Both the position numbers and the translations under genes were made by a program. Source: a virus. Taken from it: a stretch of DNA of 28,971 nt. Under the pieces are notes generated by a model. It was given only the letters and a program-made list of their open reading frames with translations, had not been told where the DNA came from and did not search any database. Below, in pieces: positions 4,646 through 22,203 of this stretch. The first letter of the stretch is position 1. Each line of letters opens with the position of its first letter. The DNA lies in IMG/VR virus record IMGVR_UViG_3300024433_000035, positions 1 to 28,971 of that record; one strand, written 5' to 3'.

Positions 4646-5637
4646 TAAAACACCCGGCCTCCAAACTGCTTCCGCAGGAAACTGAACAGCAGCCCATCGA
4701 TCGCGGGGATCCCGGTTTCATTATGCACCGCCGCGCGTTCGAATAATTTCCGGAGAGTATAGGCATACCCGTCCACCGATTCACTCGCGAAGTTCGCAAA
4801 CATCGGCGCGGTAACTGTGTCCCACTTGCCGCCTTCTTTCAGGAGCAGACACGTTGCCAGCGATATCGGATCCGGACATGCAGCATAGAGCCCCCAGGTC
4901 GCGTCGACTGCGATATTCTTAAACCCATACGGGAATATCGATGATGTCCCACTACAGTATGCCACTGCGGCTTCGCCGGTCGGCGGCTCCATCTGATTCC
5001 GCGGCCACGGTCGACCGTCTTTATGGATCAGCCAAGTTCCGCGGATTCTATAATCTGCAACCGTGAAAGTCGCGGTAGCATCATCAAGATTCGTGATGGC
5101 GGTTAATTCCAGGATCGGCCCATCGCATGGCAAATAGAACATCCCGGTGCCGTCGACATAACGGGTCTCTTGTACTGGCAAAAAATGCTGCCCGCAGACT
5201 CGATCGATGATCGACATAGCAATCCGGATGAGATACTGAATATCGTCATCCGACAGTGGGCTGCCGATAAGACAGCGTGCACGCGCCTCGGTTACGGACA
5301 GATAATAATCCGCAGCTGCAAACGTCCCCGCTGCATAGACATAGAATTCCAGCGTGGCCGTTACGGCGTCGTGCCCGGCCTCCGGCGTGTAGTACCACTT
5401 GTCATAATGCTTGCCCAAAGTCTCAGCGCCAGGGACGGCCCAATCCACATAATAAAGCCCGGTAGCATCGCGCACGATTTCGCTGGCTGCGAAGGTGTGT
5501 AAAACCGAGAGATCGGCTGCGAGGATCTCTACCTGCGTAAATGCATATGGATCATAGAGATTCCCTTCGGGATCGTGAAACTTAATGCCGAGCCGGACAG
5601 TTTGGCCTTGCTCGGCGGCATAGCGTGAAACGGCCAT
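4645..5637 (-). CDS. Head-tail adaptor with an extra N-terminal beta-sandwich domain
   Basis: A 330-residue protein starting at ATG 5637 behind AGGAGG. Residues 1-105 look like an Ig/BppU-like beta-sandwich (QGQTVRLGIKF, GLYYVDWAVPG, ATLEFYVYAAG). From about residue 110, YYLSVTEARAR, SDDDIQYLIRIAMSIIDRVC and GQHFLPV match the start of gp6/gp15-like head-tail connectors, whose first helices carry this acidic DDD..L...A...ID pattern. The C-terminal part ends in LFSFLRKQFGGRVF. Normal adaptors are 100-200 residues, so this is a fusion. The N-terminal domain resembles the two proteins encoded just upstream, suggesting domain duplication. Confidence 0.72.
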   Translation of the reverse strand: MAVSRYAAEQGQTVRLGIKFHDPEGNLYDPYAFTQVEILAADLSVLHTFAASEIVRDATGLYYVDWAVPGAETLGKHYDKWYYTPEAGHDAVTATLEFYVYAAGTFAAADYYLSVTEARARCLIGSPLSDDDIQYLIRIAMSIIDRVCGQHFLPVQETRYVDGTGMFYLPCDGPILELTAITNLDDATATFTVADYRIRGTWLIHKDGRPWPRNQMEPPTGEAAVAYCSGTSSIFPYGFKNIAVDATWGLYAACPDPISLATCLLLKEGGKWDTVTAPMFANFASESVDGYAYTLRKLFERAAVHNETGIPAIDGLLFSFLRKQFGGRVF

Positions 5638-14988: not shown

Positions 14989-16542
14989 TTATTTCCCAAG
15001 CGAAGTGGCTTTAAGCCCACCGCGCGTCCTCTTGCCACAGGCGCTGGTAAAAAACCAAGATGCCATCAGGCGATCGCCTGTATGCTCAACGGGATCGAAG
15101 CGTAACATATCATCTATCCATTCTGCCGATTGATGGTTCCTGGGGATCCGCCACATACGGTTTTCGAAGTCGACAGACATCGCGCGAACGCCCAGGGTAG
15201 GATCCGCCTTGTTCTTGCCCGTAGTAAAAGGATGCAACCGGATGGCCTTGGCGAATCGTTTAATTTCATCAAGCGCCATGGAGCCTTCGGATGGCGTGTT
15301 TTTGATGATGGCCCTAAAGATCTCATCGGCGCCTCTTAAGAACTGCAACAGATAATCCTGTGCCGAATTGTTTTCCACCTCAAACAACACAGGTTTGAAG
15401 CGATCCTGAATCTGACAGAAATTCTTGATGATGTCAACAAGTCCCATTCGGCCCGCGATGATATTAAGCACCACTTTTGTCCCATGCGGATCCACGCCGC
15501 CAATGAAAAATACTGTCTCATGTGCGCCGCGCTTCTTCTTGACTGCCAAGTCAACACCGACATAGACCTGCAGTTCATTGTCGTCATAGCGGGAGACAAA
15601 ATGCCTGCCTTCGGCCTCGGCCAGTTCAACGCATGTCTCAATCGCTGCCCGGCTAAAATCATCACTCCCGCGTTCCTTGTCGGGGATATTTTTCATCGAT
15701 CGTGCATACTCGATCGAGCTGACCTCGGCGAGTCTTTCCTTGCGGCGCCACTCCGGCCAACCACAGACCTCCCCGGACGGCATGATTTCAAGATCCGGCC
15801 AGAGATCATCATCGGCATCATAGCGTTCGACGTGATAATTTGTATTCGCCGCAGCCCAATGCATCGCGTCTTCTGCATGCCAGGCATTGCCGATCATCCA
15901 GAGACGAGCCAGCGCGGTAAGCCTGGAAATCACTGTGTTCTTGACATATTCAATCACCCGCTTGCGCTGGCCCCGGGTTAGAGTATTTTCGAAGTCGAGG
16001 ATATCATCTAAGATAGCCAGGTCGAGCCGCGCTCCCATGATGTTCCCGTTCACCCCGACCGCCTCCACCGTATAATCCTTATTTGACAGATCCTTTCGCT
16101 CAACAACGATGTGACTGTCCTGCCAGCCCATGACTCGCCCGCGCCTGCGTTCAGGACGCACGTGTGGAAACACCGCCTGATAGCGTGCGTTATAACCGAT
16201 CGTCTGGCGGATCACGCCGAGAAATTTATGCGCCTGCCCAGCCGTATTGGAAACCAGCGCTGCGCGGATGTTGGTGTTCTTGCCGATCTCCCAGCTCAGG
16301 CGGCACACGGAAATCTGCATCGACTTCCCGTGCTCAACCGGGGCGAAAATAACCAGGCGCCGATATTCATTGCAGAGATCCTGCCATTCGTCATGAAGGG
16401 GTTGTGCTTTCCAACCGAAAACGTACTCGCCGAAGGTCGCCGGATCCTGCCTGGCTACCTGGATCGTGTCGCGTTCGTAAGCGCCGAGGTCGGCTTCCAG
16501 CAGATCCTGATCATGCTCAATTTTCCCGGGGGAGTCTGTCAT
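14989..16542 (-). CDS. Terminase large subunit
   Basis: From ATG 16542, which overlaps the upstream sulfatase-like gene as ATGA, the product is 517 residues. The ATPase half has a Walker A of the terminase type, FAPVEHGKS (residues 66-74), an adenine-side segment near the N-terminus (QPLHDEWQDL), and Walker B RLDLAILDD (172-180). The nuclease half has YVGVDLAV with Asp 331, FEVENNSAQDYLLQF with Glu 390, and the late MSVDFENRMWRIP block. This is the motor and nuclease that packages DNA into the prohead. All key residues are present. The longer reading from 16602 is rejected because the overlap start fits the operon's habit. Confidence 0.94.
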   Translation of the reverse strand: MTDSPGKIEHDQDLLEADLGAYERDTIQVARQDPATFGEYVFGWKAQPLHDEWQDLCNEYRRLVIFAPVEHGKSMQISVCRLSWEIGKNTNIRAALVSNTAGQAHKFLGVIRQTIGYNARYQAVFPHVRPERRRGRVMGWQDSHIVVERKDLSNKDYTVEAVGVNGNIMGARLDLAILDDILDFENTLTRGQRKRVIEYVKNTVISRLTALARLWMIGNAWHAEDAMHWAAANTNYHVERYDADDDLWPDLEIMPSGEVCGWPEWRRKERLAEVSSIEYARSMKNIPDKERGSDDFSRAAIETCVELAEAEGRHFVSRYDDNELQVYVGVDLAVKKKRGAHETVFFIGGVDPHGTKVVLNIIAGRMGLVDIIKNFCQIQDRFKPVLFEVENNSAQDYLLQFLRGADEIFRAIIKNTPSEGSMALDEIKRFAKAIRLHPFTTGKNKADPTLGVRAMSVDFENRMWRIPRNHQSAEWIDDMLRFDPVEHTGDRLMASWFFTSACGKRTRGGLKATSLGK

Positions 16543-17534
16543 CGCCCAACGTACCCTAAACCCTCGAGCCGTTTTAAGACCTCCGGATCTGCAGTCGGCC
16601 ACGGCAGGGACGGCCCGGGTTGTTTGATGGAAAACCGGCGCAGAATCGTATTGAGCATCATGTGGTGGTCGGCGGGTTCATAGACTTCGCGAACAGCCAG
16701 CTGGATCGGCAATGGCGTCCGCGCTATGAGGGGAACCCGAATGAGTTCGGGGAACATCCCATAGGCATGAATACAAAAGCCCCGTTCGCCTAAGCCTTCA
16801 CCATGGTCGCCGGTAACGAAGATCTCGGCATCCGGAAAGGCGTCGAAGAGTTCAGGCATCTTCGAATCGAGAAATCGGATCGCCCCATCGTAGGCAGCGA
16901 TGTAACATGCCGGATGATTGGCGATGCGTTTGCCGAAATACCGCGAGCCCTCGACTGTCCATTCCTGGCTATCTTCGCCGCACCACTCGACCAGCGCGCC
17001 GATCTTGTCGAGGATCTTCATGCCCGGCATTGCCATCGGCCCCCAGCGTTTCTTGTGGGTTTGCCAGAGAGCGTCCCCGACAAAACGCTGGTGGTTGCCC
17101 CAGGGTTGATACATCGCATGCGTCTCCTGCAGGTGTAGCACCCCGAAAAACTCCGGGCGGCCTCGGTGTGCAGCGATAAAGGCATCGACCATCTGATTCG
17201 CCGTTGGCCTCTTGCCGCTCCGGTGATACCACGCAGGCCAGGACTTAAAGTCGAAAACGCTCGTGGCCATGCGCTGGCCTGCCGGTGTCGCGTTGCCGCT
17301 GTAAAACGATGTGTGGATCTTGTTGCGAGAAATCGTCAGCGCATAGTTGGCGATCCGCTGGAACGTCCCCTTGGTCGCTGAGGCATTAGACTTGAAATCG
17401 CTCCACATCAAACCCTTGGCCCCGGTTACCACGGAATCCAAGAACGGAGTCGTCTCGCGATCGTACCCATAACAATGGATATGATCGCTCCGCAAACACT
17501 CGACCATGACAAGAATAATCTGTGTTTTGTTCAT
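16539..17534 (-). CDS. Sulfatase / alkaline phosphatase superfamily protein
   Basis: A 331-residue protein with clear sulfatase architecture: ILVMVECLRSDHIHCYGYDR (residues 7-26), VLHLQETHAMYQPWG (132-146), IFVTGDHGEGLGERG (238-252) and HAYGMFPELIRVPLIAR (256-272), ending EGLGYVGR as many sulfatases do. Asp 243 and His 244 are the expected metal ligands. The first metal position is Glu 12 where Asp is usual. The nucleophile region reads SNASATKGTFQRI (49-61): there is no C/S-x-P-x-R signature for formylglycine, so a Ser or Thr nucleophile, as in phosphatases and phosphoglycerol transferases, is more likely. It is joined by ATGA overlaps to the small terminase before it and the large terminase after it. 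Function in the phage is unknown. Confidence 0.85.
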   Translation of the reverse strand: MNKTQIILVMVECLRSDHIHCYGYDRETTPFLDSVVTGAKGLMWSDFKSNASATKGTFQRIANYALTISRNKIHTSFYSGNATPAGQRMATSVFDFKSWPAWYHRSGKRPTANQMVDAFIAAHRGRPEFFGVLHLQETHAMYQPWGNHQRFVGDALWQTHKKRWGPMAMPGMKILDKIGALVEWCGEDSQEWTVEGSRYFGKRIANHPACYIAAYDGAIRFLDSKMPELFDAFPDAEIFVTGDHGEGLGERGFCIHAYGMFPELIRVPLIARTPLPIQLAVREVYEPADHHMMLNTILRRFSIKQPGPSLPWPTADPEVLKRLEGLGYVGR

Positions 17535-18391
17535 CTGAGATCCTCTATCGATGGCACTTCAAAATCACAACCCTCTTCATCTGCACCATCGTCTCCGGCG
17601 TCATTGTCAGCCGCTCGGTCAAGTCCTGTGGCGGCGAAACTAACATCAAGGTGTCCGCCGGCAGATCCGAAATCGTCAGGATCGGGATCCCCCACAGGCT
17701 CCTCAGAGACCTCCTCGGCGGTAGCAGGGATGGCCTGGGGATCGTCTCCAGGCGGAACTTCAAAGAGGACTCCATGAAGGTCTCCTTCCTGCGGCGCATC
17801 CTTCACGCCACGCAATGCCATTTGCGTCCGCGCATCGGTTACGGTCGTTACCTGCTCCCGGCCCAGCAGCGTGCGGAGTTGCCGCAGATGTTTGCGCACC
17901 GCCGGAATGTTATCCGCTGGCACCTCCGCGAATTCCCCCTTGCCGCCTCCAGGCGGCGCGTTGTTTGTCGTCTGATTGATAAAGGCGAAAACCGGCGACT
18001 GCTCGGTCTTGCCGAAGCCCAAGATCATCGCCTGCAACCGGATCGCCTCGAGTACCCGCGCGTCAGCCGCGGTGCGTGCGTTGTAATCGGGTTCGGTCAC
18101 TAACTGTGGTTTCTCGTCCTTGTTCTCACGCACCTCCCGAACCTTCACGGCCTTGTCGGCGATCTTGTTCTGCCGAACAATTACCGTCCCGATCCTCGTG
18201 AGCATCTCGCCTACGGCACAGCCGTCAATGATCAGGAGATCGGTATAGCGCTTATAAATCATCTTCAGGTCATCAACCACCGTTGCCCGGGTTACCTTCA
18301 CCTCCTCGGCAATCTGCGTTGGGTTCGCTCCCCGCGCGGCAAGGCTCAAAACCTGCTTTTCACGTTCCCAGCGCTCCTGCCTGTCAGACAT
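17531..18391 (-). CDS. Terminase small subunit (probable)
   Basis: From ATG 18391, with GGAGGG nine bases upstream and an 8-nt overlap with the ParB-like gene, the product is 286 residues. Residues 17-49 form a helix-turn-helix (SLAARGANPTQIAEEVKVTR, then ATVVDDLKMIYKRY), as expected for DNA recognition by a small terminase. A middle helical part (ADARVLEAIRLQAMILGFG) could mediate oligomerisation. The C-terminal 70 residues are strongly acidic (GDPDPDDFGS, DNDAGDDGADEEG). Its position upstream of the large terminase, separated only by the sulfatase-like gene, supports the call. A general transcription regulator is the main alternative. Confidence 0.72.
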   Translation of the reverse strand: MSDRQERWEREKQVLSLAARGANPTQIAEEVKVTRATVVDDLKMIYKRYTDLLIIDGCAVGEMLTRIGTVIVRQNKIADKAVKVREVRENKDEKPQLVTEPDYNARTAADARVLEAIRLQAMILGFGKTEQSPVFAFINQTTNNAPPGGGKGEFAEVPADNIPAVRKHLRQLRTLLGREQVTTVTDARTQMALRGVKDAPQEGDLHGVLFEVPPGDDPQAIPATAEEVSEEPVGDPDPDDFGSAGGHLDVSFAATGLDRAADNDAGDDGADEEGCDFEVPSIEDLR

Positions 18392-19022
18392 CCGTGTCGC
18401 CCTCCGCAAGACCGACCGCTCCCAGGTACCCTCGCACCATTACCATCAGCGCCTTGCCCCGGGAAACGCCTCCAGCTAACGCACTGGCCCGCGTCAAGGC
18501 CTCCTCGAGCAGCGCCGGATCGTCCTCCACCACGAAGGAGACGATCTTCGGTCGCGTCCGCTCCGCCTCCTCCTCCTCGGCATCCAGGTCGACCTCTAAG
18601 GCATCGGATACCTTCGAAAGTTCAAGCGCATCCCGGAGCTCCGCCTCGCTGTAGGGGAGATGCGTCTCGAGGTCGTCGATCGATAGATCCGTCGACAGAT
18701 CCTGAACCAGCTTCGCAAACAATGCTTGCACCGACTGCCCCTTGAGTTCGTTCAGGTTGATCGATAGGATCTTCGCTTCACGATCGCCCAGGTCGACCAC
18801 GCTGCAGGGGACGGCCGTGTAGTCTAACTCCTGCGCCGCCATCCAGCGATGGTAGCCACCGAGGATCTCCCAGCGCCCATCGTGCGGACGCACCACCAGC
18901 GGCTCTACAAAGCCCCGGGCTTTTATATAGGCCCGGAGTTTCGCATATGTCTCCGCGTCCATGCGATTCGGATTCCATGGATTAGGTACCAAATCGCCGA
19001 TCGGAATTTCCTGAATATCCAT
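18384..19022 (-). CDS. ParB/Srx-superfamily (ParB-like nuclease fold) protein
   Basis: From ATG 19022 (GAGG five bases upstream) the product is 212 residues. Residues 1-90 show the ParB-like fold: IPIGDLVPNPWNPNRMD, YIKARGFVEPLVVRPH, then GRWEILGGYHRWMAAQELDY, where GGYHR is the family's phosphate-binding GxRR-like motif. The C-terminal half is acidic and helical (LEVDLDAEEEEAERTRP). In phages such proteins sit near terminase and methyltransferase genes and may act as nucleases, NTP-binding factors or partition proteins. Longer starts at 19049 and 19070 are possible but have weaker binding sites. The fold call is firm; the role is not. Confidence 0.8.
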   Translation of the reverse strand: MDIQEIPIGDLVPNPWNPNRMDAETYAKLRAYIKARGFVEPLVVRPHDGRWEILGGYHRWMAAQELDYTAVPCSVVDLGDREAKILSINLNELKGQSVQALFAKLVQDLSTDLSIDDLETHLPYSEAELRDALELSKVSDALEVDLDAEEEEAERTRPKIVSFVVEDDPALLEEALTRASALAGGVSRGKALMVMVRGYLGAVGLAEGDTDV

Positions 19023-19186
19023 CTCAACCTCGCTCTCAGCTCCCGCCATGTCCACCACGGCCAGAGCCATTCGATCCGCAACGCGTCAAGCAGATCCTGC
19101 TCGCTGATAATGTAATCGATAAACCGATCGGCCTGAGCATAGGTGATGAAGGCTTTGGCCTGGCCCGGCGGTAGACCCAACATCAT
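18923..19186 (-). CDS. Short ORF with a capsid-arm-like motif
   Basis: ATG 19186 overlaps the upstream stop as ATGA, the coupling used throughout this phage. The first 40 residues contain ADRFIDYIISEQDLLDALRI, which closely resembles ADRLIDFIVDESTLWSKVRV in the major capsid protein of this same phage. From about residue 41 on the sequence (WPWWTWREL...) runs over the start of the ParB-like gene in another frame and looks like a shadow. Either a short protein is made with a poorly conserved tail, or it is a remnant. An overlap of about 100 nt with the ParB-like gene counts against a full-length functional product. Confidence 0.42.
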   Translation of the reverse strand: MMLGLPPGQAKAFITYAQADRFIDYIISEQDLLDALRIEWLWPWWTWRELRARLRWIFRKFRSAIWYLIHGIRIAWTRRHMRNSGPI

Positions 19187-19527
19187 GCCCTCACCCTTCT
19201 CGCGGCCTCGAGGATCCCGCAGATCTGCGATATCGCCAACCGAATCGCCAGCCTCTCCAGGCGCACGATAGCAGCGTTAATGCGATCGACATATCCGGCC
19301 ACCTCTGCCGTGACGACAATCGCTAACCCACCAGGTTTGTACGGCCCCATGAGCCAACGGCCACAAGCACCACAGCGCTGCTGTGAATCCTTGACCAACG
19401 CGTTCCGCACTCCGCACATGGGGCACTCCCACGTCTTGTCAATCGCCCCGCCTACCTCACCCGGATCACATATTCCACGTTTGTCGTCCGATGCCGATCC
19501 GATGCCAGCGCCGCCAGGTGTGTGCAT
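19183..19527 (-). CDS. Zinc-ribbon protein
   Basis: A 114-residue protein whose start ATG 19527 is supported by GGAGGAG six bases upstream, although it lies 76 nt inside the methyltransferase gene. CPMCGVRNALVKDSQQ followed by CGAC (residues 35-55) is a classic zinc ribbon, C-x2-C-x13-C-x2-C. The C-terminal half is helical (YVDRINAAIVRLERLAIRLA) and may form a coiled coil. Zinc ribbons usually bind nucleic acid or mediate protein contacts. No specific family is recognised. It lies between methyltransferase and ParB-like genes, so a DNA-related role is plausible. Confidence 0.7.
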   Translation of the reverse strand: MHTPGGAGIGSASDDKRGICDPGEVGGAIDKTWECPMCGVRNALVKDSQQRCGACGRWLMGPYKPGGLAIVVTAEVAGYVDRINAAIVRLERLAIRLAISQICGILEAARRVRA

Positions 19528-20471
19528 TTGATCTCCTCCACGTCTATATCTTCACGGAACTTCCGGATGCTGTCAACTAGCTCCGCGATCGGAAACCCCT
19601 GGTTGCCATAGGATAGAACCCAGGTGGGAAACTTCTCGCAGGCTATAAATAAATCCTCCAACGCCGATCGCGCCTCCTTCGTCGAGAATACACTGCGCGG
19701 CACCTTCGATATCTCGCCCGCCAAGATCGAATCCAACACCCGAAGGCTCTGCTCATAACTCTGCGTGCCCACATACGGCGGATCCAGGTAGACCACATCC
19801 CCCTCTACCCGATCGAGAAAATCAAAGACGTCCAGCTGGTGCGCCTCGTTCTGAAGCCCGTTGGTGAATACTCCCTTGTTTATATACGACAGCACCCGCC
19901 TGGCAACCGTCCGCGGATGCCCCGCTATGTTCCGCGCCAAGATGTCACGAACGTAGTTCTGATTCATCTCCTCCCATTTCCCGTCTTCCGCCTGCTGGAT
20001 GATCGTCTTCGCCCCGAAGTTCCCCGCCGGACGCATCCGCAAAATGTACTTGATCAAAAGAAGCAGAAGCATCCACCGCTTGACACCCTCCGCTCGATGC
20101 GCCCAATAGAATGCCCGATCGAGAAAACGCGCGTGGCGCGTTGTGAATACTCCATAGGCGAAATGGTCGGCAATGAAGGTCTGTGGCTCCGGGGGCTTCA
20201 CGAAAAGCCGATCGATGTCTAACTCGTCTAAGCGTACACGATCGTTTGCAATCAATGCCTGGCCGACAATGTGACTCCGAAATGCAATGTCGTTCGCCAG
20301 TACCCGGTAACCCCGAGCCTTCCCGAAAAGCGAGACGCTGCCGCCCCCCATGAAGGCATCCACCAGAACGGGTGCTTCCGAAGGCGGGGGGATCCACTTG
20401 AAAATGTGACCGAGCAGACGACGCTTGCCGCCCCGGTAGAGCGGCAGTGCCCGAAGCCTCGACCAGGCCAT
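19452..20471 (-). CDS. D12-class DNA adenine-N6 methyltransferase (Dam-like)
   Basis: From ATG 20471, preceded by AAGGAGG seven bases upstream, the product is 339 residues. It has the Dam-family entry LYRGGKRRLLGHIFKWIP (residues 11-28), the SAM-binding motif I VDAFMGGGSVSLFG (37-50) and the catalytic motif IV DVVYLDPPYVGTQSYEQ with DPPY at 230-233. D12 enzymes methylate adenine at N6. It is the first gene left of the repeat-rich region. The target cannot be read from sequence; GATC is the classical target of the Dam branch and is frequent here. A longer reading from 20582 is rejected since it lacks a binding site and its extra residues are not family-like. Confidence 0.88.
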   Translation of the reverse strand: MAWSRLRALPLYRGGKRRLLGHIFKWIPPPSEAPVLVDAFMGGGSVSLFGKARGYRVLANDIAFRSHIVGQALIANDRVRLDELDIDRLFVKPPEPQTFIADHFAYGVFTTRHARFLDRAFYWAHRAEGVKRWMLLLLLIKYILRMRPAGNFGAKTIIQQAEDGKWEEMNQNYVRDILARNIAGHPRTVARRVLSYINKGVFTNGLQNEAHQLDVFDFLDRVEGDVVYLDPPYVGTQSYEQSLRVLDSILAGEISKVPRSVFSTKEARSALEDLFIACEKFPTWVLSYGNQGFPIAELVDSIRKFREDIDVEEIKCTHLAALASDRHRTTNVEYVIRVR

Positions 20472-20792
20472 GACGCGCCTCCTTGAGAGATCGAGGTCGA
20501 TGAGCACCCGCTGGAAGCCCACCGACCTCACCCAAAACGGAGTGTGACGAGGATGAGTCGTCAGCGACGACCACTCTACCATGGCCCGACTGAGACGACA
20601 ACATAAAAATTCTCCCCGGCGTTCCCGTGTGTGAAAAATGACGACCTGGACAAGATACCCGGGCGATCCGGCTCGTGATCAGAGGCGGGGGATAGAGCAA
20701 AATTCGTGCCATCGATTTACGCTAATTTGCATCCTGCGCTGCCGGCCTTGCATGTTTTCGCACAGCTTCTGCTTTGCTGTGAGTGTCCTCGC

Positions 20793-20826
20793 TGATCGTT
20801 GCCGACCTTTGTCGATCAAACTGATC
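20793..20826. other. GATC cluster with 6-bp dyad near the methyltransferase gene
   Basis: Three GATC sites lie at 20794, 20814 and 20823. The first two are arms of the dyad TGATCG/CGATCA (20793-20798 and 20813-20818, 14-nt loop). The cluster is about 320 bp upstream of the Dam-like gene. If that enzyme methylates GATC the cluster could be a methylation-sensitive control site, which is inference. Confidence 0.35.
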
Positions 20827-20860
20827 ATTTAAGCAATCGCTGTCGTCATTTGACCAGGGT

Positions 20861-21008
20861 TTGCACATGCTGTGCAATCAGTGTGGAACGTTGTGCTCTA
20901 CAGTCACGACGTTTGCTGATTATGACACCTGGACAGATGCTGTCCACTTTTGCAGATAGCGAGCTTTAAGGTCACGCTCCTTGCACATGCTTGCGCATGC
21001 GTGTGGAA
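20861..21008. repeat. Composite direct repeat spaced exactly 120 bp
   Basis: TTGCACATGC, ten variable bases, then GTGTGGAA occurs at 20861-20888 and again at 20981-21008. All 18 fixed positions match. The first copy includes a perfect TTGCAC/GTGCAA hairpin with a 5-nt loop. GTGTGGAA reads TTCCACAC on the other strand and resembles a degenerate DnaA box. A third TTGCACATG lies at 21682-21690. Confidence 0.75.
20930..20946. repeat. 7-bp perfect hairpin with 3-nt loop
   Basis: TGGACAG, ATG, CTGTCCA form an exact inverted repeat. Its right arm is followed by CTTTT, so CCACTTTT at 20944-20951 matches the CCACTTTT of the 20-bp repeats near 21800 and 21846. It lies between the two copies of the 120-bp-spaced repeat. 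Confidence 0.6.
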
Positions 21009-21113
21009 TCACACTGATTTCTTGGTCGGGTTTGGCAGATCGTGTGCTTTGGCGTGGGTTATTTCGCAGGCGTGTGGACAGAGTGGTGCCCTGGTGCTGC
21101 TCGGTGCGGACGG

Positions 21114-21553
21114 AGTGGGCTGCGGAGAGTGGAATTTGCACTCACATTTCCACAGAAGTGGGCTGCGGAGAGTCGTGTATGAGTGCTTTTTCAGTCGAAA
21201 GTGGGGTGATGGTGGCAGGATCAGTGATGCTCCCGGGGCAATGGTGGAGCCATGGTGGGCTGCGCGGCGTCGGTGTGACACTTGATTTGCGGGCAAAGTG
21301 GGCTGCGAAGACTGTGATTATGACTCACATTCCACCGTCAGTGGGCTGGAATAGTGGGTGTTATCACCCAGGACATGCCTGATGCATGACTGTGTGTGTC
21401 GGCCAGGCGGCGCCGGTGGGACGCCGTCCCAGGATGTGACTCATTATTGCACTCATGTTTCACTCGAAGTGGGCTGCGCGGAGTCAAACGTGAGTCCTCT
21501 TTCAGTCGAAAGTGGGCTGCGGCGTCACACGCAAGCCTGTGTCGTGTCTGTGA
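21114..21553. repeat. Degenerate tandem array with a 43-bp period
   Basis: The core AGTGGGCTGCG (or a close variant) starts at 21114, 21157, 21200, 21254, 21297, 21340, 21468 and 21511. The spacings are 43, 43, 54, 43, 43, 128 and 43 bp; 128 is three units less one base. The units at 21114 and 21157 share 17 identical bases (AGTGGGCTGCGGAGAGT). The intervals between cores are also related, often ending TTTCAGTCGAA or containing TGACTCAC. A 69-bp segment at 21138 is about 77% identical to one at 21449. The period is close to four helical turns, as for iterons. Reading frames here do not repeat, because 43 is not a multiple of three. Confidence 0.82.
21353..21372. repeat. Hairpin element, copy 1
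   Basis: AGTGGGTGTTATCACCCAGG contains a 6-bp stem TGGGTG/CACCCA with a TTAT loop. A second copy with one change in the loop (TTTT) lies at 21897-21916. Both copies begin AGTGGG like the cores of the 43-bp array. Confidence 0.7.
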
Positions 21554-21750
21554 CACACACCCGGGGCAGCCGCGAGATCGGGGATCCCCCTGAATGCACG
21601 TCCGCGATCGCCCGTAACGGCGGCCTCTCCCGCATGATCGCATAAAAGGCATTATGTCAACTTGGCTGAAGTGCGCAGGTTTTGCACATGTTGATACTAT
21701 GACATCCCCGGGTGTGTCCCCCGCGTGGCAAACATCCCGCGAGCGCCGCC

Positions 21751-21774
21751 GGACATGTCCACACTCTGTCCACA
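21751..21774. promoter_or_regulatory. Paired DnaA-box-like sites phased at 11 bp
   Basis: TCCACA occurs at 21758-21763 and 21769-21774, each preceded by TG, giving TGTCCACA twice one helical turn apart. The left copy is part of the palindrome GGACATGTCC (21751-21760). The bacterial DnaA box is TTATCCACA, so these are partial matches. They suit an initiator-binding site but could serve a phage protein. Confidence 0.4.
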
Positions 21775-21794
21775 TCCGGTGCATAACCGCCCAG

Positions 21795-21860
21795 AGTGAC
21801 CACTTTTAGAGTCATACATGACTGTCGAGCGACTGTCGAAAGTGACCACTTTTAGAGTCA
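21795..21860. repeat. Perfect 20-bp direct repeat, 46-bp period
   Basis: AGTGACCACTTTTAGAGTCA is present at 21795-21814 and 21841-21860 without mismatch. Between them lie the dyad AGTCAT-AC-ATGACT (21810-21823) and GACTGTCGA twice, 11 bp apart (21820 and 21831). The second copy is preceded by GTCGAA, as are two cores of the 43-bp array, which links the two repeat families. Confidence 0.8.
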
Positions 21861-21896
21861 GCGAGCAGGCATGTCGGAGTCATGGATCAGTCATGC

Positions 21897-21916
21897 AGTG
21901 GGTGTTTTCACCCAGG
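21897..21916. repeat. Hairpin element, copy 2
   Basis: AGTGGGTGTTTTCACCCAGG repeats the element at 21353-21372, 544 bp away, with the same TGGGTG/CACCCA stem and a TTTT loop. Conservation of the stem and flanks with a change only in the loop suggests selection for the hairpin. It could be a protein-binding stem in single-stranded DNA or RNA. Confidence 0.7.
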
Positions 21917-22114
21917 GCACACCCTCACAGTCATCCTGTGAGTCATCCTCGCAGGATCCCCGGGGTAGCCCCGGAAACGAAGGCCACAGAGCGCCCGTGT
22001 GCGTCGATCGCAAGCCCTCGCGGCTCCCAGGTCGTATCCCCGGCGATCGCCTCACACGCGCGACGTGTGCGCGAACCTGCCCCCGGCATGCCATGGTGCA
22101 TGGGTAAAATAGGC

Positions 22115-22148
22115 AAAAAAAAGACCGACCGGAAGGTGCTCTTCCCGG
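22115..22148 (-). terminator. Probable intrinsic terminator of the small-gene operon
   Basis: On the minus strand CCGG-G-AAG pairs with CTT-CCGG (22129-22148; 7 bp with one bulged G, 5-nt loop). Six bases later there is a run of eight T (22122-22115). It lies about 55 nt after the stop of the last small gene at 22204. The 6-nt gap before the T run is longer than ideal, hence moderate confidence. Confidence 0.5.
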
Positions 22149-22203
22149 GCAGAGGCAGATTTACAGCCCTAACCATATGGCCCCTATAGCCCCTTCAATC
22201 GCC

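Follow-up and report, generated by a model that had tools for sequence, protein, structure and literature searches.

An eight-core array with a 43-bp period in the non-coding region ahead of the packaging genes of an uncultured phage

A 28,971-base virus record from IMG/VR (the window hereafter, ie the whole stretch of DNA that was analysed) contains a long non-coding region ahead of its packaging genes, and in that region a short sequence recurs with a period of 43 bp. The question raised by this locus is what such an array does. The initial annotation placed eight cores there, spaced 43, 43, 54, 43, 43, 128 and 43 bp apart, and a direct check of the positions bore out both the cores and the intervals. 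Comparisons were made mainly with a related phage, G001 (IMGVR_UViG_3300031566_000037, 56,758 bp), which has identical 127-bp ends, as expected of a circular assembly, and which shows 93-97% identity to most of the window. The region, the array and its cores are as follows.

20472..22203, no strand assigned: long non-coding control region (1.7 kb) that separates the upstream operon from the methyltransferase/packaging operon, with no codon phase against G001
21114..21553, + strand: eight-core array on a 43-bp grid, from k-mer lag analysis and unit alignment; kept in G001
21114..21124, + strand: core 1, AGTGGGCTGCG
21157..21167, + strand: core 2, AGTGGGCTGCG
21200..21210, + strand: core 3, degenerate, AGTGGGGTGAT (AGTGGGGCGAT in G001)
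21254..21264, + strand: core 4, GGTGGGCTGCG, adjoining an 11-bp duplication behind the 54-bp gap
21297..21307, + strand: core 5, AGTGGGCTGCG
21340..21350, + strand: core 6, AGTGGGCTGGA
21468..21478, + strand: core 7, AGTGGGCTGCG
21511..21521, + strand: core 8, AGTGGGCTGCG; G001 is divergent, with an insertion, from this core to about 21562

The array is real. The exact sequence AGTGGGCTG occurs at 21114, 21157, 21297, 21340, 21468 and 21511, followed at 21340 by GA instead of CG, and cores 3 and 4 are variants of it; elsewhere in the window there is a single copy, at 5255. Within 20472-22203 the strongest 6-mer lag is 43, with 34 matching pairs compared to 10 or fewer at any lag in 300 dinucleotide shuffles, so that the autocorrelation peak anticipated at this period was found. 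The 8-mer AGTGGGCT is present in six copies in the non-coding region where 0.07 are expected (p = 1e-10), and direct repeats of 61 and 73 nt run across cores and spacers. Tandem Repeats Finder did not report the array, even at a score of 30, because the spacers and units are too diverged.

The repeat unit is larger than the core. When the units are aligned on their cores a T is found at -9 in all eight, and there are weaker matches in the flanks, CACTC or GACTC around -18 to -14 and GAGTC around +13 to +17. Identity was compared among units 1, 2, 4, 5 and 7, the non-degenerate units whose next core follows at a true 43 bp; their cores agree at 106 of 110 positions (96%) and their spacers at 139 of 320 (43%). 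The spacers fall into types, units 2 and 7 being alike at 23 of 32 positions and units 1 and 5 at 19 of 32. One period before 21468 there is a spacer of the same type as that of unit 1 (19/32) whose core has been lost (3/11), and this core-less spacer supports the reading of the 128-bp interval as 3 x 43 - 1. The 54-bp gap holds an 11-bp local duplication, ATGGTGGAGCC/ATGGTGGGCTG. The array thus looks like an old tandem duplication in which the cores have been held constant, with the caveat that the units were picked by their cores.

It had also been proposed that the period is close to four turns of DNA, so that bound proteins would lie on one face of the helix. This holds if the helical repeat is left free: with about 10.7 bp to the turn every spacing comes to a whole number of turns, and the coherence there (R = 0.98) is equalled by 0.7% of random spacing sets. 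At exactly 10.5 bp per turn the coherence is gone (R = 0.09), and therefore the description as four turns is valid for a slightly longer repeat only.

A search for the same array in related phages found it in G001, with no indel over about 940 bp. Between the two phages there is one substitution in cores 1 to 7, in degenerate core 3, and one at the last base of core 8, compared to 21 in the spacers. Fisher's test gives p = 0.02 for seven cores without change and the edge base 21521 left out, and p = 0.19 over all core bases, so that core conservation, taken alone, is only suggestive of constraint. Core 8 lies at the edge of a divergent block, with 29% substitutions in 21521-21620 and a 111-bp insertion in G001 (window 21521-21562). 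A second relative, G002, matches the window at 99.8% identity over the part compared and lacks the array because its contig begins at 21894. That start is unremarkable as a DNA end, being one of several contig ends among three linear contigs. A third, G003, overlaps the window at its right end only.

Beyond the window and G001 the array was not encountered. No homologue was matched among annotated phages or plasmids, and two specific pattern scans of IMG/VR returned G001 only. A loose scan gave 94 stretches, most of which are taken to be coding repeats because three divides 105 of the 127 gaps between their cores; a 43-bp pair was met in one further place (L102), where it stands alone and one open frame runs through it. 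Searches with the large terminase (TerL), the methyltransferase, the O-like protein, an upstream-operon protein and the capsid protein recovered G001, G002, G003 and a 7.6-kb fragment (L114), which is 87% identical in the capsid protein and too short to reach the array region. One weak match, which looks spurious, came from a genome scan with TerL, and literature searches for phage arrays with a 43-bp period, or for an intergenic array like this one, turned up nothing relevant. The array is known from this virus and G001 only, and is of a kind already known.

An origin of the array in a repetitive protein had been dismissed on the ground that 43 is not a multiple of three. The conclusion is right, and better evidence for it comes from comparing the two phages, in which codon-level conservation is absent from every frame: substitutions between the window and G001 have no codon phase across the region, and in each of the nine open reading frames tested the nonsynonymous changes outnumber the synonymous. 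On this substitution pattern a coding repeat was rejected. A structured non-coding RNA was also considered and discarded, there being no Rfam match and no unusual folding over the array (z = -1.2 to +0.8 on both strands, in 150-nt windows wholly between 21033 and 21482). The region holds several other elements.

21353..21370, with a second copy at 21897-21914, no strand assigned: small hairpin AGTGGGTGTTATCACCCA, from the repeat and inverted-repeat search (families D9 and I1)
21795..21814 and 21841..21860, + strand: two copies of the repeat AGTGACCACTTTTAGAGTCA (family D6)
22115..22148, - strand: intrinsic terminator-like site after the upstream operon, stem CCGGGAAGAGCACCTTCCGG then a T run; consensus match only
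20919..20946, - strand: tentative promoter-like TGGACA-16-CATAAT with TG, overlapping the dyad TGGACAGCATCTGTCCA

The terminator-like site is almost unaltered in the alignment with G001, which was also the sole match of an IMG/VR pattern scan with the AGTGACCACTTTTAGAGTCA repeat. The promoter-like site is held to be tentative because one such match was found where 1.0 is expected by chance and because it is weaker in G001. About 30 bp of the window (from 21968-22003) recur near a Sak4-like recombinase gene in the other two relatives (G002:C1:18597-18630 and G003:C1:13770-13803). Over the whole window GATC occurs at 2.7 times the expectation from base composition, but at 1.09 times that of a trinucleotide model, and a Dam-like (D12) methyltransferase is encoded. 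The non-coding region has 15 GATC sites against 16.5 expected; with no enrichment there, the region gives no sign of a pac site switched by methylation as in P1.

The confidently called genes here are all on the - strand. In the order of transcription, the terminator-like stem (T run from 22148) is followed by the non-coding region and then by genes for the methyltransferase, a ParB-like protein, a helix-turn-helix (HTH) protein, a sulfatase-family protein, the large terminase, the portal and the capsid. Those closest to the argument are listed here.

19452..20471, - strand: D12-class N6-adenine DNA methyltransferase (PF02086, 3e-18)
18384..19070, - strand: ParB-like protein with a ParB_N domain (PF02195, 5e-14)
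17531..18391, - strand: protein with an N-terminal HTH, candidate small terminase subunit, from weak HTH matches and its position upstream of TerL
14989..16602, - strand: large terminase subunit (phrog_38, 7e-53)

The start of the methyltransferase gene at 20471 was placed by an AAGGAGG Shine-Dalgarno sequence and by G001, in which a 245-bp insertion with a small open reading frame, absent from the window, separates the Shine-Dalgarno from the methyltransferase start (window 20471; L010:8127-8370). A sulfatase-family protein (PF00884, 5e-18; window 16539-17534, - strand) is encoded between the candidate small and the large terminase and is unusual cargo for a packaging cassette; its single-sequence structure model was uninformative (pLDDT 35). 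Elsewhere in the group there is a long hairpin whose stem measures about 22 bp (ACCCATTGCAAATGGCCAGGAA, L008:18181-18234), near which G003 has about 1.3 kb of extra sequence, and G001 carries a row of genes for a MobA-like NTP transferase, an FkbM-type methyltransferase and a glycosyltransferase (L008:18493-19999, L009:2-988), possibly concerned with surface or virion modification.

Profile matches of the HTH protein are weak, with values of 0.0013 for GerE and E = 0.089 for a small terminase family (phrog_2538). In its structure model N-terminal residues 1-40 (pLDDT about 80) form a predicted NarL-type HTH, of which about 40 residues superpose at 0.6-1.0 A on known domains of this type, with no match of E < 0.05. 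By its position and this modelled domain the protein is the best candidate for a small terminase.

From these features it is probable that the array is a cis-acting control element to which a protein would bind, whatever its output. Its specific role is a matter of graded possibilities, and the one we tentatively favour, while giving it rather less than an even chance, is a packaging-initiation site of the cosB or pac type, with the HTH protein as the presumed ligand and packaging as the presumed outcome. It is favoured because the region follows the terminator-like site and precedes the methyltransferase, ParB-like, HTH, sulfatase, large terminase and portal genes. Each of the eight sites, a AGTGGGCTGCG core with semi-conserved flanks, would dock a DNA-binding protein on one face of the helix. 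The HTH protein, acting as small terminase subunit, would assemble cooperatively on the array and recruit the large terminase, and a cut in nearby DNA would then start packaging, as at cosB or pac. We count for this reading that the non-coding region opens the operon with the HTH, TerL, portal and capsid genes, together with the 43-bp period, the contrast between cores and spacers, the retention in G001, the helical coherence and the N-terminal HTH model. Known small terminases have N-terminal HTH domains and repeat-bearing sites, as at R1-R3 of lambda cosB (PMC9026076), and the pac site of SPP1 contains direct repeats (PMC4737164).

The likeness to these systems has limits. As at lambda cosB (R3-I1-R2-R1), several near-identical short sites lie upstream of packaging genes and an N-terminal HTH protein is the reader, here a candidate one; but the array has eight sites instead of three, all in one orientation and with a 43-bp period, at least 2.7 kb from the candidate small terminase gene. 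With the pac site of SPP1/SF6 it shares direct repeats that precede the terminase genes and lie in a promoter region, here a putative one; but pac of SPP1 comprises three distinct sets of repeats and overlaps the small terminase gene at its start, and the array is one family on a grid. Distance counts against a packaging site: the array, upstream in the direction of the operon, is separated from the HTH gene by 2.7-3.1 kb with the methyltransferase and ParB-like genes between, while cosB of lambda and pac of SPP1 lie directly beside the gene for the small terminase. A set of eight in 400 bp exceeds the number of sites at cosB, the contigs yielded no mapped DNA end or cleavage site, the match to a small terminase is weak, and core conservation between the phages is, as noted, suggestive at most. 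In SF6/SPP1 the pac repeats barely affected binding by the isolated HTH domain (PMC4737164), a warning that the HTH domain may recognise something other than the repeats at such a site. In another version, to which we give a very small chance, the eight phased sites would form a packaging-initiation site of novel arrangement, far from the small terminase gene; the ParB-like protein might read it jointly with the HTH protein, and ParB-type loading would thereby be linked to packaging.

Control of the late promoter is a close rival to packaging, and a realistic though still doubtful one. The array would then be an upstream platform for an activator or repressor of the packaging/structural operon promoter, acting from about 170-590 bp. 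The region does lie between the terminator-like site of one operon and the start of the next, the called genes are co-oriented, the promoter-like site with its overlapping dyad (20946-20919, - strand) is in the same region, and so are the further short repeat families and dyads. Set against this, the promoter match is at the level of chance, no late-activator gene was found, and a same-orientation array of such length is unusual for an activator. The initial annotation had likened the cores to iterons, ie sites for a replication initiator, and in their tandem, same-orientation, helically phased arrangement in non-coding DNA with several further repeat families nearby they do resemble them; G001 also has one DnaA-box-like TTATCCACA in the aligned region. 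That reading is weakened, and we regard it as unlikely, as G001 has a gene for a lambda-O-like initiator (L008:11574-12788) about 20 kb from the array on the circle. This gene holds a pair of 15-bp dyads (GTGACAATATTGTCA and GTGACACCGGTGTCA) that lie 24 bp apart and do not differ between G001, G002 and G003. In lambdoid phages the origin is in the middle of O (PMC7466680). From its position, like that of the lambda ori iterons, the dyad pair (L105:10472-10514) is probably the replication origin of the phage group. Both the array and lambda ori have tandem protein sites, presumed ones in the array; the array differs in lying in non-coding DNA with no AT-rich tract (100-bp blocks over 20472-22203 peak at 52% AT), and the non-coding region of the window has no DnaA box within one mismatch of TTATCCACA. 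GC skew tracks gene direction and located no origin.

Less probable again is that the array is a relic without function, left by an old tandem duplication and now drifting in a spacer. The units do differ strongly and some grid positions have no core, but the difference in identity between cores and spacers argues the other way, albeit with units that were defined by their cores, as do a phase retained despite an 11-bp insertion and the presence of the array without indels in G001. A centromere-like or loading site for the ParB-like protein encoded beside the methyltransferase is very unlikely. Plasmid centromeres typically have iterated sites, and the parC/parS arrays resemble this one in having tandem sites near a ParB-like gene, here a ParB_N protein encoded 2.0 kb away. 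However, no ParA-type ATPase (AAA_31, PF13614) was found in G001, G002 or G003, whereas 14 of 14 control genomes had one, and a ParA-type centromere is therefore not supported; ParB-like proteins are, in addition, widespread among phage genomes and need not act in partition.

On present evidence the array is a well-formed but ordinary kind of regulatory array. Its eight phased sites would make it a good substrate for studies of cooperative binding. If it is a packaging or late-control site, it provides a mapped control region for an uncultured phage group, together with specific candidate proteins.
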